Positions 19,793-33,867 of a stretch of DNA of 33,937 nucleotides are shown here, in pieces. Position numbers and translations under genes: made by a program. Within the stretch, counting starts at the first letter, position 1. Each line of letters opens with the position of its first letter. The stretch lies in the IMG/VR virus record IMGVR_UViG_3300010368_000045, positions 1-33,937 of that record. The stretch is one strand, 5' to 3'. Source of the stretch: a virus. Under the pieces are notes generated by a model, which worked only from the letters and a program-made list of their open reading frames with translations, ran no database searches and was not told the DNA's origin.

Positions 19793-19839
19793 TAAAAATA
19801 AACCCGCTAAGCTAAGACATGAAAAAAAACTTAGCGGGT
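19793..19839 (-). terminator. Rho-independent terminator, minus strand
   Basis: ACCCGCTAAG (19802-19811) and CTTAGCGGGT (19830-19839) form a perfect 10-bp stem with an 18-base loop. In the minus-strand RNA the stem is followed by TTATTTTTAAA. It lies nine bases past the stop of the 20150 gene and could end part of the early transcripts while letting some read through to the genes beyond. Confidence 0.75.
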
Positions 19840-19847
19840 ATAACCTG

Positions 19848-20150
19848 TTATGCTTGCAATCGTAAATCTCTAATCACTTGCTTGACATTGAATTTTTGCT
19901 TTTCGCCTATAAAGCTAAGTATAAAAAGCTTGCTATTATCGCTTAATTTACTGCTAGTTACCCATGCTGGCTCATTCAATGATTGATTAATTTTCTTAGC
20001 TGCATCCCGTAATATTTTATTTAAGTAATAACTGCTATCTTTATCATGGCTTATAAATATTCCATAAGTCCCAGCTTGTATAATGTCACACTTGACACCT
20101 AATCCCTTAAGCAAGTTACCAATTTTTGTTATTCTGTCTTGATATTTCAT
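19848..20150 (-). CDS. Unknown protein
   Basis: 100 residues, alpha/beta, basic, Lys-rich at both ends. Alternating strands and helices (CDIIQAGTYGIFISHD, then NKILRDAAKKINQSL) suggest a small globular domain. Start cassette AAAAGGAAAATAAGACAATG. Followed by a terminator. Confidence 0.55.
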   Translation of the reverse strand: MKYQDRITKIGNLLKGLGVKCDIIQAGTYGIFISHDKDSSYYLNKILRDAAKKINQSLNEPAWVTSSKLSDNSKLFILSFIGEKQKFNVKQVIRDLRLQA

Positions 20151-20436: not shown

Positions 20437-20695
20437 ATATTCCTCTTTCCCAGTAACCGTTATCTAGTTTTTTACAAGTTTTGCGAATCCCGCCTAAATG
20501 TCCATTGCCTACTTGTATCAGGCTCTTACCATTATCAAATTTGTTAAACCGCCAAATAGGATAACCATTAACATCATCACAAAAACAATATCGATCTAAA
20601 TACCAGTGGTTATTACCCGCTGGACATTCTTTAAATAAGAATGGCATTATTTTATGTAAAAACCGTTTATACCATGGAGCGTACCTACTTGACAT
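20417..20695 (-). CDS. Unknown Cys- and Trp-rich protein
   Basis: 92 residues with four Cys (ECPAG, YCFCD, KTCKK) and several Trp. The N-terminus is basic and aromatic (RYAPWYKRFLHKIMPFLF). The Cys spacing could bind a metal but does not match a known ribbon. The start shares one base with the previous stop (TAATG). Confidence 0.55.
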   Translation of the reverse strand: MSSRYAPWYKRFLHKIMPFLFKECPAGNNHWYLDRYCFCDDVNGYPIWRFNKFDNGKSLIQVGNGHLGGIRKTCKKLDNGYWERGIYGDESI

Positions 20696-26272: not shown

Positions 26273-26305
26273 AAAAAAAAGATCCCCAGTGCTAGACTGA
26301 GGATC
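26273..26305 (-). terminator. Antisense-facing terminator at the start of the winged-helix gene
   Basis: GATCCCCAGT (26281-26290) and ACTGAGGATC (26296-26305) form a 10-bp stem with a five-base loop. The one imperfect pair is C-A in the plus RNA and G-U in the minus RNA. Eight T follow on the minus strand. It therefore terminates leftward transcripts, insulating the promoter at 26144-26177. In the plus RNA it also covers the GAGG before ATG 26306. Confidence 0.7.
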
Positions 26306-27930: not shown

Positions 27931-28114
27931 AGAAAGAGAAAAAGAGATCATTAAACTAAGAGAATCAGCTAATAAAGCACTCCTAGACCTTAAAAGAACC
28001 ACTAAACCATTTGAAGCTGTTGCTAATAAACATTGGCTTAAAGGAAGAGCCCTCGTTATCCAGACTTATGTCAATGAACTTGAAGATTTGCTCAGAAGGG
28101 AACTGGATTCATGA
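27911..28114 (+). CDS. Small helical protein
   Basis: 67 residues, basic, almost entirely helical (EREKEIIKLRESANKALLDL, then GRALVIQTYVNELEDLLRR). AAAAAAGGAGAGAAATATG gives a good start. It overlaps the RusA-like gene by four bases. Unknown function. Confidence 0.55.
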   Translation: MTVKLSEEREKEIIKLRESANKALLDLKRTTKPFEAVANKHWLKGRALVIQTYVNELEDLLRRELDS

Positions 28115-28479
28115 GAATCTTTATCCCTGGAAACACTCCAAGCTCCAAGAATAGCAGGGTTTATACTGGTAAGTTCTTTATCACATCAAAACAAACTAGA
28201 AATTACATCAAAGAGACAGAACATCACTGGATTGAGCATGGAGCGGTCTTCAGACAAGAGTTTGACCGACTTCCTAAACCTGTATCCATTTCCTTTAAAT
28301 TTATCCGCAAATCAAAGCACAAGTTCGATTACATCAACCCTGCACAAACAGTTCAAGACCTTATGACTAAATACGGCTGGATTCCAGACGACAACTGCGA
28401 AGAAATGATCCCTGTCTTTGAAGAATACGAATACGATAAAGAAAATCCAGGTACTTACATTGAAATCCTAAAAAATTAA
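28111..28479 (+). CDS. RusA-like Holliday junction resolvase
   Basis: 122 residues. The family layout is present: a basic start (PGNTPSSKNS), a strand pair, D73-x-x-N76, D83 in a DLM helix and DD at 93-94 after GWIP. The usual Asp two residues after the first and the Lys before the helix are replaced (I75, Q79), so catalysis may differ or be lost. RusA enzymes cut branched DNA before packaging, which fits the neighbouring packaging genes. Confidence 0.7.
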   Translation: MRIFIPGNTPSSKNSRVYTGKFFITSKQTRNYIKETEHHWIEHGAVFRQEFDRLPKPVSISFKFIRKSKHKFDYINPAQTVQDLMTKYGWIPDDNCEEMIPVFEEYEYDKENPGTYIEILKN

Positions 28480-28486
28480 ATCTGAT

Positions 28487-28534
28487 TTACCATTAATATA
28501 TACCAATAAGTAAAGGAGAGTGTATTAATGGTAA
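28487..28534 (+). promoter_or_regulatory. Start-codon-sequestering hairpin
   Basis: TTACCATTAATA (28487-28498) and TATTAATGGTAA (28523-28534) are perfect complements over 12 bp, extended by three more pairs (two of them G-U) to 28501/28520. The right arm contains the ATG of the 28528 gene. The loop holds the Shine-Dalgarno AAAGGAGA. It could act as a translational switch that must open before the ribosome reaches the start. Confidence 0.6.
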
Positions 28535-29070
28535 CGATAATCGATAACTCGGGGAAACCCAAGATTAGTGAAGCGCAAATAGAAGATGCTAAGGCGCAAG
28601 CAGCACAAAATGTTAATCTAAAACAAACAACCGTCATGCAAGACGGAACCACTGACGAACAAAAGAATGTTGTCCGAGCTGGTAATAAAAACGCTAAAAC
28701 AATAGGACAACAATTTCAAGGAGTCACTAAAGACAACCTATTACTACTTGACAAGAAAATTCTTATTAAAGCTGCAATTAAATTGAAACATGGCAAAATC
28801 TATGTGCCTAATCAATCGGCTGATAAGCAAAATCCACTGCCTGAATACATAGAAGTCTATAGAATTAGCCCTAAAGCAAAACAAGAGATCCTAGAACAAC
28901 ACCCTGAGTTAGACCTTGATAAAACACTATATTGCGCTTGTAATATAGCTTTAATCCAACAAATGAATTGTGGGTCTAGAGTCATTGAGGAAGATGAGAA
29001 CTTCCGCTATCAATACTACACAGCACCACTATCACAAATCGAGTTTTTCTATGACCCGACAGTATCATGA
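28528..29070 (+). CDS. Unknown protein before the packaging genes
   Basis: 180 residues. The first 70 are Gln/Asn/Lys-rich and flexible (DAKAQAAQNVNLKQTTVMQD); the second part is more compact with a CACN pair and a 'FRYQYYTAPLSQIEFFYD' end. No family recognised. Its start lies in the hairpin at 28487-28534, so it may be translationally controlled. The next gene overlaps its end by 20 bases. Confidence 0.55.
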   Translation: MVTIIDNSGKPKISEAQIEDAKAQAAQNVNLKQTTVMQDGTTDEQKNVVRAGNKNAKTIGQQFQGVTKDNLLLLDKKILIKAAIKLKHGKIYVPNQSADKQNPLPEYIEVYRISPKAKQEILEQHPELDLDKTLYCACNIALIQQMNCGSRVIEEDENFRYQYYTAPLSQIEFFYDPTVS

Positions 29071-29473
29071 TTACTACGACTTCACCCCGAGTGAATTTAT
29101 AGACGGCTATCCTGCTTGGCTACAAGAGGAAGTGTGTAACAGGCGAGAAGATCCTGCTGATAACTGTCTCCCTATTTATATCCAGATTGGTTTCCTTACC
29201 CCGAGAGGGGACGGTAGATCTTTTCGCTACTACACACTAAGCAACAATATGAGAGGGCTAACTCTAGAAGATTACGGACGTGCAGTTAGGTTTCTAGAAG
29301 ATCGAAACAATATTATTCTTCCAAAATCAAGGATGGTTAAACAACTTGTGGACGGAATGAATGAAGTTGATCTCGGTCGCATTAGACAGTACACAGACAA
29401 AGGCAAAGCTAGAGAAAAACAAAGGAAGTGGAATCATGAGAACACCAGCCCGAAGGCAAAAGACCTACGCTAA
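29051..29473 (+). CDS. Unknown protein before the terminase
   Basis: 140 residues from ATG 29051. Aromatic, charged start (RQYHDYYDFTPSEFIDGY), then DNCLPIYIQIGFLTPRGDGR and a basic C-terminal helix. The ribosome site is weak; a start 27 codons upstream would overlap the previous gene much more. No domain recognised; the position suggests a packaging or replication accessory. Confidence 0.5.
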   Translation: MTRQYHDYYDFTPSEFIDGYPAWLQEEVCNRREDPADNCLPIYIQIGFLTPRGDGRSFRYYTLSNNMRGLTLEDYGRAVRFLEDRNNIILPKSRMVKQLVDGMNEVDLGRIRQYTDKGKAREKQRKWNHENTSPKAKDLR

Positions 29474-30080
29474 AAGAATCACTCAATTAGCAGCTCAAGA
29501 TGATGAAACAAACGATCTTCTGTTTGATATTGTTCGCACAATTAATGAAAAAACAGAAGCTAATCCATTCCAAACTGATAAAGAACTGAAAAAACAAATA
29601 ATCAAAGAATACACAGACAAAGGGTTTGGGGATATGATGGTTCTTAAACTTTATGAAGCAGCATCTCAACAAGTCATTCCATTCTTCTCAAGCGGTAGAA
29701 AACTTGCTCAGGCAGACGCGCAACTTGATGCAATCGCTAGAAAAGCAAACGCTAACTTGTTCCAAAAGGTTTACGATAAAGAAGGAAACCCAGTAGGTGA
29801 GAGATTTGATGCATCTGTAGCTGGAGTGGCTGTTAAAGCAATTAAATCCAAAATGGATACACTCACTAAGATGCAAGCTAATGTGATTTCAGCACAAGCG
29901 AAGAATCAAGAACAGACCGAAAAGCAAGGATTTGAAATTGAAGATGCAGATAGAGAACAACTACAAAAACTTGTTGCAGGGGACTTGATTGAACACCCTG
30001 AGATTGTCGATATGCTACTTGAAGCAGCTAGAAGTAAAGATGATACACAAATGTTTTATGAGGTGATTGATAATGAGTAA
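29436..30080 (+). CDS. Candidate small terminase subunit
   Basis: 214 residues from ATG 29436 (AAAGGAAG nine bases upstream). A basic N-terminus (RTPARRQKTYAKRIT), a possible helix-turn-helix (ETNDLLFDIVRTINEKTEAN ... KQIIKEYTDKGFGDMMVLKL), a long helical middle and an acidic end. Size, helical content and location just before the large subunit fit a small terminase. No decisive motif is seen. Confidence 0.4.
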   Translation: MRTPARRQKTYAKRITQLAAQDDETNDLLFDIVRTINEKTEANPFQTDKELKKQIIKEYTDKGFGDMMVLKLYEAASQQVIPFFSSGRKLAQADAQLDAIARKANANLFQKVYDKEGNPVGERFDASVAGVAVKAIKSKMDTLTKMQANVISAQAKNQEQTEKQGFEIEDADREQLQKLVAGDLIEHPEIVDMLLEAARSKDDTQMFYEVIDNE

Positions 30081-30363
30081 AAAGGTAAAAAGATTTGGAC
30101 TTGAGTTCCAAGAAAATAATGATGGTTCATATTCTTGCTACATATCACCGCTTCCAGTGATTGGACGTGGCAATTCACCAGCAGAAGCATTACAAACATT
30201 TGCTAATGCAATTCCTGACGTTTATGAGAGTTGGGCTGAAAACCTTTGTATCGAACATGCAGAGAATGGATTGTCCCTTAAAGCATACAAAGAACTTACC
30301 TACATGGTTAGTAGTTACACAAACGATAAACATAGTGCCCTTTATTACACCCCAATTAAATGA
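30073..30363 (+). CDS. HicB-like protein beside the terminase
   Basis: 96 residues from ATG 30073 (GAGGTGA site). Strand (RFGLEFQEN), a glycine/polar turn, strand (SYSCYISPLPVIGRG) and helix (SPAEALQTFANAIPDVYESW) match the HicB fold and the protein at 25483. LPV.G.G.S..E.L and a terminal W..NL are shared. The remaining 40 residues differ. There is no HicA. It is coupled to the large terminase by an ATGA overlap. Confidence 0.6.
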   Translation: MSKKVKRFGLEFQENNDGSYSCYISPLPVIGRGNSPAEALQTFANAIPDVYESWAENLCIEHAENGLSLKAYKELTYMVSSYTNDKHSALYYTPIK

Positions 30364-31976
30364 ACCTCAAAATTGACTACGATACATTAACTTCTCGATT
30401 ATCAGATGAACAACTGAAAGCGGCTGCTCTCTTAATCAAAGAAAAGAAACAAAAAACAGCAGCAGAACCACTCAATAAACATAGATTCAATAACTACGCA
30501 CAAGAAAGATTTAGAGCCCTTAAAACTAGATATCGAAACCATAAAGCGGGAAACAAAGTTGGAAAGACAGATGAGAATGGATTTGAACTTGTTGCTATGT
30601 GCAAAGGTAAATGCGAAGAGTTTGGAATCAACTTCCCGCATAAACCACCATTAAAAATATGGTATTGCGGACGAGATCGTAACGTACTCTCTGACGAGCC
30701 TCTAGCTTCAATTAAACGATACCTAAAAGGTGAGGGGATAGATCATCGCACAGTTTACACTGGACAACTTGTGAATATCATGTATATTTGGGATGATGAA
30801 GGTAATCAATCCGAAGTTAGATTCAAACCTTACAATGGTGAAATTGGAATCTTTGAGTCCGCTAACGTACATGCAGTATTCATGGACGAAGAACCGCCTC
30901 GCGACGTATTTTCCGCAATTAAAACAAAAGTAGCGGTACTACCCGGCTATGTATTCCTTACTATGACACCCGATCATGGTATGACTTGGACTTATGACCT
31001 CTTAAATGGTTCAGACCCAGATCATGGGAACCTTGTTAAAAATGGGATGCTGGAAACAGTTGAATCTAGTGTGTTTGAAAACATGCTTAACTTTAGGATA
31101 GTTACTGGAAAAAGATGGGTTAGGTTCCCAATAGAATATATCGACAAGGTTGAGAAACCTGGTTACGAATACAAAGAAGAGGACGACAAGGTTTATGTTT
31201 ATGCCCCCGATACCTTCGCTGAACATATCGACCAGTTTACTTATGGTTCAGATGAATACCGTTATCGTGTTCTTGGGCACTATGTCTCCTTCACTGGTCA
31301 TGTATATCCTTACGATCCTACAAAAAATACTTTTGATCTTGAAGAATTACCACCATTATCAGAACTGAAATTCTTTGGTGGATTTGACCATGGATACAAA
31401 GACGAAGCTTGCTTTTTTCTTGCAGGAATCGACAAATCAAATACTATCTACATCCTAGACGGATTCTATCAATCCTACTTAGACTCAAGAGATCAAGCTA
31501 GAAAAATCAAAGAAGTTTGTGACTACTGGGGCGTAACCCCTGAAATGATAGTTGCCGATAATCAGATAGACAACAGATTACCCCAAAAAGACTCGAAAAA
31601 AGCCCATATCCAATCAATTTATGACTATTTTCTTGATGAACTTGGGGATAATTGGACTACTTGGAGACGAGAAGAACTCGACAAAAGAGACCCACATATC
31701 AAGAGAGATACTATCATTAGAGCCCTGAAAGACGGCAAAATCAAGTTTAATAACCATCAACACAAGTGTATCCAGTTCATTCAAGAGCTGCAAAGGCTAG
31801 AGTTTAAAGAGGGTAAAAAGGATGAAGTTAAAGGGAAAGATCACTTTGACGCTGCTTTAAGATATTTTGTTTCAGCCAACATAAGTTACGACCATTGGCT
31901 CACCTCTGAAGAAGTTAAGGAACAAAAGAAAACACATGCTAGATATAGAGTCCAGCAGCGAGGGCCTGTCTACTAA
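30360..31976 (+). CDS. terL: Terminase large subunit
   Basis: 538 residues. ATPase: Walker A AGNKVGKT (63-70), Walker B AVFMDEE (172-178) and coupling motif TMTP (201-204). RNase H-like nuclease: D343 (GGFDHGY), D400 (VADNQ) and D494/D497 (KDHFDAA). The protein pumps DNA into the procapsid and cuts concatemers. The N-terminal 60 residues are helical and charged. It follows the HicB-like gene by ATGA and precedes the portal. Confidence 0.95.
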   Translation: MNLKIDYDTLTSRLSDEQLKAAALLIKEKKQKTAAEPLNKHRFNNYAQERFRALKTRYRNHKAGNKVGKTDENGFELVAMCKGKCEEFGINFPHKPPLKIWYCGRDRNVLSDEPLASIKRYLKGEGIDHRTVYTGQLVNIMYIWDDEGNQSEVRFKPYNGEIGIFESANVHAVFMDEEPPRDVFSAIKTKVAVLPGYVFLTMTPDHGMTWTYDLLNGSDPDHGNLVKNGMLETVESSVFENMLNFRIVTGKRWVRFPIEYIDKVEKPGYEYKEEDDKVYVYAPDTFAEHIDQFTYGSDEYRYRVLGHYVSFTGHVYPYDPTKNTFDLEELPPLSELKFFGGFDHGYKDEACFFLAGIDKSNTIYILDGFYQSYLDSRDQARKIKEVCDYWGVTPEMIVADNQIDNRLPQKDSKKAHIQSIYDYFLDELGDNWTTWRREELDKRDPHIKRDTIIRALKDGKIKFNNHQHKCIQFIQELQRLEFKEGKKDEVKGKDHFDAALRYFVSANISYDHWLTSEEVKEQKKTHARYRVQQRGPVY

Positions 31977-32010: not shown

Positions 32011-33867
32011 ATGGTAACAGAAGAAGAAAAGTTAGAGCAAGAAGCGCTTAGTAGAGCTGTACAAGTTGCAGAGTTTGCCTTGAAGCACGTGCAAGAGCGT
32101 TTCTCTAAGCGTCAATTCTATATAAACATGTACCATTCCTACGATGAGCTTCTAAAACAGAAGCAATGGTGGCAAACTAAATTTGCACATCCATTCCCAT
32201 TTTTCACTACTGAAATGAAAGCATCCTTCTACTATGAGGGTGTCTTTGGGCAAACAAGTCAAGGTATCTGGCAAGTACATCCTTGGAATGAATTTAGTGC
32301 TACAAGCGCTGACCTAACCACTAGATTAATGAAAGCACAAGAAGATGAGTCTAACTTTGTAAAGACATTCTACCTTGGATCTAAACAACTTTCAATCCTA
32401 GGAGATTGGTTCCTAGAAGTTTACTGGGATAGACAAGAGCGCTTCATCCAGAGACGTGGCACTCCATTGATAGACTTTGATCAACAAATACAAAGACCAA
32501 TTATCACTAGACCACAAGGTGAGCCTCAGTTGGTTGTTGATAAGAATCAACCTGATGCTAGAACCCTTTATCTCAATTCAATTTGGCCTGATCCTAAAGC
32601 TACATCAATAGAAACTGCTAGATCTGTTGTTATTAGACGTGCGCGCACTTTTGATGAACTTAAACAAGATGAGCAGATAGGTAAATATATCAATGTAGAC
32701 AAAATCAAGGGAACTGACCTGCCTAAGCTACCAACTCACTATTACGACATCGAACCATTCAACCCATTCGTAAAATCAGGGAATCCTAGCAATATCAAGG
32801 GTAAATCACCTATAGATGAAGCTAACCCGATCATCGAGGTACTAGAACTTCATGATCTCCGTACTGGTGAAGTGGAATCTATCGGCAATAGAAAGGTTTA
32901 TCTAGGTAAAATCCTTAGATATGACAACCTGAAAACACCTTTTGTTCAAATCAAGAACTTTGAGGAGCTTGGCAAATTCTGGTCAATGTCTGACTATGAA
33001 TCAGCAGTTGCACCTTGGAAACTTATCAACCAAAAAGAATCTATGATGGCTGATAACGAATTGATGCACCTTAGAGGCTATACACGTATCCAAAGAGATG
33101 CTGGTGCTGGCGTTGCAGAACAATATCAAAATCTAGAACCTGGTTCAATTATTGAAATGAACAATCTAGGTGCAGCAGATCATACAAGACCAGATTTATA
33201 CAGCCCATTAGTATTGCAAACCAAAGAGTCACTACTTAGTCAGGTTTATCAACCAATGGGAATGAATGAGATCCTACAAGGTGCTTCCCCAAGCTCAAAC
33301 GTAAGATCACAAGAACAATTTGCTACTTTAGCCAATTTCGGAGCCAAGATTATGTCTCAAGGCATTAGAAATATCTCACAAGGACTCAAAGAACTTGGCA
33401 AGAAGTGGCTTTTAATGAACTATGAGTTCTTAGATGTTGACCAAACAATCCCAGTAGTGGGACAAAATGGTACTCAAATGATACGAATCCAACCAGGTGA
33501 TATACCGCCTACTGCTAACGTATCTGTAAGAATCAGCTCTGATCTAGAGGCACAAAAAGGTCAGAAATTACAACAACTTCTTCAAGCTCTTAATCTTGTT
33601 CAAAATATCCCTGGTTTCAATACACCAGCTCTTGCTAGACAATGGCTCAAGAAATACGGTGATGTTGAGGATATTGATAAGATGTTCCTTCTTCCAGATG
33701 AGCAAGTAGTTCAGTTGATATTAAGTCAATTCGGGATTCAAGGTAGTGGCGGCCCAGGTAATCTACCTCAAGAGCCTAGCTTGGCTGGAGCAACTCAACC
33801 AGGAAGCCCAAGTCAAGTAGCTTCTGGAAATAGACAATCAGGGCAACCAACAGTGCCACAAGTGTAA
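32011..33867 (+). CDS. Portal protein
   Basis: 618 residues. The order terminase then portal, the size and the pattern identify it: an N-terminal helical clip region, an aromatic stretch WWQTKFAHPFPFF, a beta wing with FLEVYWD, a long central helix zone (LINQKESMMADNELMHLRGY) and a helical crown ending in a Gly/Pro/Gln-rich tail. It forms the dodecameric channel at the capsid vertex. The ribosome site is weak and an ATATTA/TAATAT repeat lies in the 34-base gap. Confidence 0.85.
   Translation: MVTEEEKLEQEALSRAVQVAEFALKHVQERFSKRQFYINMYHSYDELLKQKQWWQTKFAHPFPFFTTEMKASFYYEGVFGQTSQGIWQVHPWNEFSATSADLTTRLMKAQEDESNFVKTFYLGSKQLSILGDWFLEVYWDRQERFIQRRGTPLIDFDQQIQRPIITRPQGEPQLVVDKNQPDARTLYLNSIWPDPKATSIETARSVVIRRARTFDELKQDEQIGKYINVDKIKGTDLPKLPTHYYDIEPFNPFVKSGNPSNIKGKSPIDEANPIIEVLELHDLRTGEVESIGNRKVYLGKILRYDNLKTPFVQIKNFEELGKFWSMSDYESAVAPWKLINQKESMMADNELMHLRGYTRIQRDAGAGVAEQYQNLEPGSIIEMNNLGAADHTRPDLYSPLVLQTKESLLSQVYQPMGMNEILQGASPSSNVRSQEQFATLANFGAKIMSQGIRNISQGLKELGKKWLLMNYEFLDVDQTIPVVGQNGTQMIRIQPGDIPPTANVSVRISSDLEAQKGQKLQQLLQALNLVQNIPGFNTPALARQWLKKYGDVEDIDKMFLLPDEQVVQLILSQFGIQGSGGPGNLPQEPSLAGATQPGSPSQVASGNRQSGQPTVPQV

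Follow-up and report, generated by a model that had tools for sequence, protein, structure and literature searches.

A perfect hairpin over a start codon between the DNA-metabolism and packaging genes of a phage: a probable cis-acting control of translation

Introduction

When the start codon of a viral gene is enclosed in a perfect inverted repeat, the question arises whether the structure governs the translation of that gene and, if so, by which route the start is set free. We address this question for an intercistronic element (28487-28534) of the IMG/VR record IMGVR_UViG_3300010368_000045, whose complete 33,937-nt stretch was analysed and is hereafter referred to as the window. The evidence suggests that the hairpin is probably an ordinary cis-acting translation control, as in phage T4 and bacterial operons.

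Geometry of the hairpin

Two exact reverse-complementary arms, 28487-28498 (TTACCATTAATA) and 28523-28534 (TATTAATGGTAA), were found 24 nt apart in the sequence and by a repeat finder. Their pairing extends, through two U-G pairs and one A-U pair, to a stem of 15 pairs (28487-28501 / 28520-28534) that contains neither mismatch nor internal loop and closes a loop of 18 nt. The description given by the initial annotation (i.e. a perfect 12-bp hairpin, 15 pairs long with two G-U, that holds the ATG of a 180-residue gene in its second arm) was borne out by sequence, repeat finder and fold. The element is composed of:

28487..28501, plus strand: 5′ arm; 12 Watson-Crick pairs, then U-G, A-U and U-G (sequence, repeat finder, fold)
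28502..28519, plus strand: 18-nt loop with the Shine-Dalgarno sequence (SD) AAAGGAGA at 28512-28519 (sequence, fold)
28520..28534, plus strand: 3′ arm with the ATG (28528-28530) and part of codons 2-3 (sequence, fold)

Position 28528 is the most plausible start of the 180-aa open reading frame (ORF), given an in-frame TAA at 28507-28509 and an SD that is well spaced from this ATG, intact and strong. Within the loop, the fold model predicts, at a probability of ~0.9, pairing between CC (28503-28504) and the GG of the SD (28515-28516). The claim that the loop displays the ribosome site holds in part: the SD does belong to the loop and, since its core GG is predicted to be paired, it would be only partly presented rather than fully free. 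An intrinsic terminator at the hairpin was rejected, as neither the sequence nor a terminator search revealed a T run after the stem.

Genomic context

The hairpin sits between genes of DNA metabolism (methyltransferase, RusA) and genes of packaging (terminase, portal), the principal members of this neighbourhood being:

28111..28479, plus strand: RusA-like Holliday junction resolvase (PHROG 1682, E 2.3e-19)
28528..29070, plus strand: 180-aa ORF, start sequestered in the hairpin (no relative found)
30360..31976, plus strand: terminase large subunit, fourth gene downstream of the 180-aa ORF (PHROG 5653; tblastn to terminases)
32011..33867, plus strand: portal protein (Pfam SU10_portal, E 3e-14; PHROG 1216)

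Upstream, on the same strand, the methyltransferase is followed by the RusA-like resolvase. Downstream, two genes for which no relatives are known precede a 98-aa gene, behind which lie the terminase (30360) and the portal (32011). No confident family could be assigned to the genes that separate the 180-aa ORF from the terminase (28970-30363), and the small terminase subunit, expected near this stretch, was not recognised there. The plus-strand gene run starts at ~26.3 kb and passes through the methyltransferase and RusA, and neither a terminator-like nor a sigma-70-like site was found between RusA and the 180-aa ORF. The element therefore lies at a junction inside a co-directional array and not at the entrance to a packaging operon, for which it had been taken, the terminase itself lying 1.8 kb downstream.

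At the head of this run (26281-26305) the minus strand carries a strong terminator-like stem with a run of eight T behind it (GATCCTCAGTCTAGCACTGGGGATC TTTTTTTT). Elsewhere in the window we observed an inverted repeat (TAAACCCGCTAAG / CTTAGCGGGTATA, 18-nt gap) at 19799-19842, just downstream of a minus-strand ORF (19848-20150), and, at 868-2148, a 426-aa protein whose N-terminus is signal-like and whose very long body is rich in Gly, Ser and Ala. This protein has no family match and is encoded by a stretch of 54% GC (as compared to mostly 30-42% elsewhere in the window).

Search for relatives

The 180-aa protein had no relatives in phage records, IMG/VR, GTDB genomes, Pfam, PHROGs, NCBIfam or PDB, and its AlphaFold model, built without an alignment, was uninformative (pLDDT 36.8). 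No phage was found to carry the junction when relatives of the terminase, portal, RusA, 214-aa gene or methyltransferase were followed (the three relatives of the methyltransferase, 31-36% identical, were left out of this check). Furthermore, the terminase relatives are remote (20-30% identity) and the ORF is absent from all of their loci that were retrieved. RusA relatives are common; those of IMG/VR are succeeded by other sequence and no such hairpin, which indicates that the hairpin is not a constant companion of RusA. Two other viral contigs contain the exact arm pair; the surroundings of one of them were read, and neither has significant sequence in common with the window. Rfam gave no match at the gathering score in the window, and only chance hits at a relaxed threshold.

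Stability and accessibility of the start

The hairpin has a predicted free energy of about -15 kcal/mol at 37 °C (region fold z -3.5), and in all contexts of 60 to 1000 nt the model keeps the AUG paired at a probability of at least 0.998 (P unpaired 0.002 or less), irrespective of the amount of flanking RNA. Opening the region from -15 to +15 would cost 16.2 kcal/mol, the highest value among 60 starts of the window, and opening the AUG alone 9.8 kcal/mol, as compared to 5.0 for the next of the 60. The 180-aa start ranks first of the 60 in fold z-score, AUG accessibility and opening cost, a rank unaffected by the fact that a few of the start coordinates are off by some bases (printed codon not ATG/GTG/TTG).

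The comparison was widened to 605 SD-bearing starts, drawn from this window and from viral loci with RusA or terminase relatives, for which the cost of opening the AUG has a median of 1.75 and a 99th percentile of 6.9 kcal/mol. At 9.8 kcal/mol the 180-aa start again ranks first, level with one TTG call; the next-highest costs belong to GTG or TTG calls, which may be mis-assigned starts. The computation thereby supports the earlier proposal of a hairpin that conceals the start codon and affects translation (AUG closed, top opening cost), and according to the model independent initiation at this start would be nearly impossible as long as the stem is closed.

Translational coupling to RusA

The reading that we favour, tentatively, is that of an intercistronic start-sequestering hairpin that bars independent initiation until a ribosome completing RusA opens it. 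On a read-through transcript from RusA the stem would close over the AUG, and a free ribosome would hardly be able to start the 180-aa gene. A ribosome finishing RusA would halt 7 nt before the stem, strip its outer pairs (C-G included) and free the start codon, the Shine-Dalgarno sequence of the loop being meanwhile ready to bind. As the terminating ribosome would free the start codon, the 180-aa protein would be made in step with RusA, and its output would follow RusA translation (i.e. translational coupling by RNA unfolding).

The arrangement on which such coupling depends is present: the co-directional RusA gene ends near the stem, its TAA (28477-28479) lying 7 nt before the 5′ arm (from 28487) and 48 nt before the ATG, and nothing resembling a terminator or promoter was found in between. 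A ribosome on the RusA stop should have a footprint that reaches ~28488-28490, so that the stem is positioned for a terminating ribosome to start disrupting it. When the mRNA is covered in the model as far as 28489, 28490, 28491 or 28492, the opening cost falls from 16.2 to 12.3, 9.5, 7.8 or 6.9 kcal/mol, respectively. The fold, its rank and this loss of the barrier upon covering the 5′ arm are direct results of the computation; we infer that RusA and the 180-aa ORF share one transcript, that ribosomes open the stem and that this opening is of importance to the phage. Precedents for the arrangement are known, since rpmI-rplT combines a +52 nt spacing with an inhibitory structure and in f1 genes VII-IX a hairpin is opened by upstream translation (PMC12548453).

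Against coupling stands the observation that the predicted footprint edge at 28489 does not free the AUG in the model (P unpaired at most 0.002); the codon opens only with an edge from 28491-28492, and 1-3 nt of further unwinding are needed. Reinitiation by scanning drops sharply beyond ~20 nt (PMC10666635), and with a spacing of 48 nt only the unfolding route fits coupling here. In addition, conservation lends no support, as the ORF was found in no relative and the RusA relatives have no such hairpin behind the gene, and there is no obvious biological reason to tie a packaging-side gene to RusA.

Alternative explanations

In T4, the SD and/or AUG of genes e, soc, 49 and I-TevI are enclosed in hairpins; for e and I-TevI, late promoters lie within the part that encodes the 5′ strand, so that the long early transcripts are silent and a short late one can be translated (PMC3014915, PMC2988022). 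By analogy, long transcripts reading through from RusA would fold the hairpin and leave the gene silent, and a second promoter in or behind the 5′ arm would give rise to a translatable short late transcript, a scheme that we regard as possible, if doubtful. Its location speaks in its favour, as a boundary between DNA-metabolism and packaging genes is where a switch would make sense. Furthermore, a transcript that starts at 28493 or later leaves the first base of the AUG unpaired at 0.5-0.9 in the model, while the second and third can enter another weak pairing. The 5′ arm does contain an AT-rich AATATATA that matches the T4 late box at six of eight positions; however, this box has two mismatches to TATAAATA, boxes within one mismatch of which number 126 on both strands, so that a box of this sort is common by chance; no sigma-70-like promoter was found there, and the genes checked included no recognisable phage sigma factor. 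We rank coupling slightly above this scheme because the position of the RusA stop codon would let a terminating ribosome begin to peel the stem, and because no promoter was recognised, and place the T4-like scheme close behind on account of its better biological logic.

Both readings presume a functional hairpin. The hairpin probably is functional, which leaves a minor, though appreciable, chance that it is not; the corresponding explanation, that an AT-rich gap is complementary to the start region by accident and that the gene is simply poorly translated or the hairpin melted in the cell, we judge unlikely. It is the only perfect stem of at least 12 bp (loop 3-60) in the window, where whole-window dinucleotide shuffles lead us to expect 0.175 such stems, so that its mere occurrence is not significant alone; moreover, it was picked out by a whole-window scan for oddities, and support from conservation is absent, the databases searched having yielded no relative with the ORF. 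Against chance, when the sequence upstream of each SD was shuffled, only ~0.003 stems of at least 12 bp were expected over any of the 60 starts (a rough estimate, based on one event in 300 rounds) and 0.017 of at least 11 bp over the 60 likely starts, while the SD itself is intact and strong. We consider that the low expectation over starts, together with the top opening cost among the 605 SD-bearing starts, makes the hairpin probably more than a chance structure. A perfect stem of at least 12 bp over the start was present in 3 of 611 starts (the 180-aa start included). Among terminase-related viral contigs, L113 (minus strand, 11735) and L117 (8623) have perfect 12-bp stems over an SD-bearing start, and the stem of L117 recurs in L116 in an 11-bp form.

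An operator, i.e. a hairpin bound by a translational repressor or an inverted repeat bound by a DNA-binding protein, appears improbable. Translational repressors are known from phages (T4 RegA, gp32 and gp43; PMC3014915), and the window contains somewhat more copies of TATTAATGGTAA with up to two mismatches than expected (16 vs 8.4); these near copies are, however, mostly intragenic and form no further inverted repeats of such kind, no Rfam family was matched, and a protein is not needed for repression, since the stem alone already closes the AUG. Two near copies of TATTAATGGTAA (2 mismatches each) lie 36 bp apart on the minus strand at 20526-20573.

Designed toehold switches carry the ribosome-binding site in a loop, the start codon in a stem and an unpaired 5′ flank, a layout that the present hairpin resembles (SD in loop, AUG in stem, unpaired 5′ flank). 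A natural riboregulator of such geometry, in which the 5′ arm is displaced by an RNA or a ribosome and which times a gene at the replication/packaging boundary, is nonetheless very improbable. To the version in which a small RNA would bind the 5′ flank together with the 5′ arm and so open the stem through strand displacement we attach scarcely any weight: beyond the 12 nt of the opposite arm, the window offers no complement to 28466-28505 longer than 11 nt, which is at chance level, and no trans-acting trigger RNA for the flank or arm was found within the window (the record may be incomplete).

The RNA thermometer put forward by the initial annotation has least to recommend it beyond a structure that covers the initiation region, and is not supported by the temperature series: the stem has 15 pairs without mismatch or internal loop, the model keeps the AUG closed from 4 to 60 °C (its bases unpaired with a probability of no more than 0.015 over this range and of no more than 0.045 at 70 °C), opening still costs 9.4 kcal/mol at 60 °C, and no thermometer family of Rfam was matched, while known thermometers depend on loops and weak pairs (PMC8346122).

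Significance and comparison with known systems

If the hairpin is functional, one more lineage (with only remote terminase relatives, 21-28% identical) would control genes through a hairpin-hidden start codon, and would offer a clear natural example of an SD placed in the loop, one where opening by an upstream ribosome can be distinguished from a short late transcript. If it is not, nothing else follows.

Among the systems of similar appearance, ROSE and fourU thermometers likewise place a structure over the initiation region, whereas the stem of the window is perfect and stable and shows no melting at physiological temperature in the model. With synthetic toehold switches it shares the ribosome-binding site in the loop, the AUG in the stem and the unpaired 5′ flank; in contrast, it is natural, has no bulge at the AUG and comes with no trigger RNA that we could find.

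The likeness to T4 e, soc, 49 and I-TevI and to Aeh1 mobE is closer, all being phage hairpins that close the initiation region on read-through transcripts (PMC3014915, PMC2988022). Common to them is a layout in which the upstream arm precedes the gene and the downstream arm covers the initiation region, while the present phage has its SD in the loop and its AUG in the stem, and no late promoter was identified in its 5′ arm. There is no sign of kinship with T4, the terminase of the window matching other phages.

As compared to established coupled pairs, coupling in the present phage is predicted, and the footprint of the terminating ribosome would fall 1-3 nt short of full opening. In line with such pairs (f1 VII-IX, MS2 coat-lysis and E. 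coli rpmI-rplT), the upstream gene lies on the same strand and its stop stands beside the structure, at a spacing of +48 nt as compared to +52 nt in rpmI-rplT (PMC12548453).
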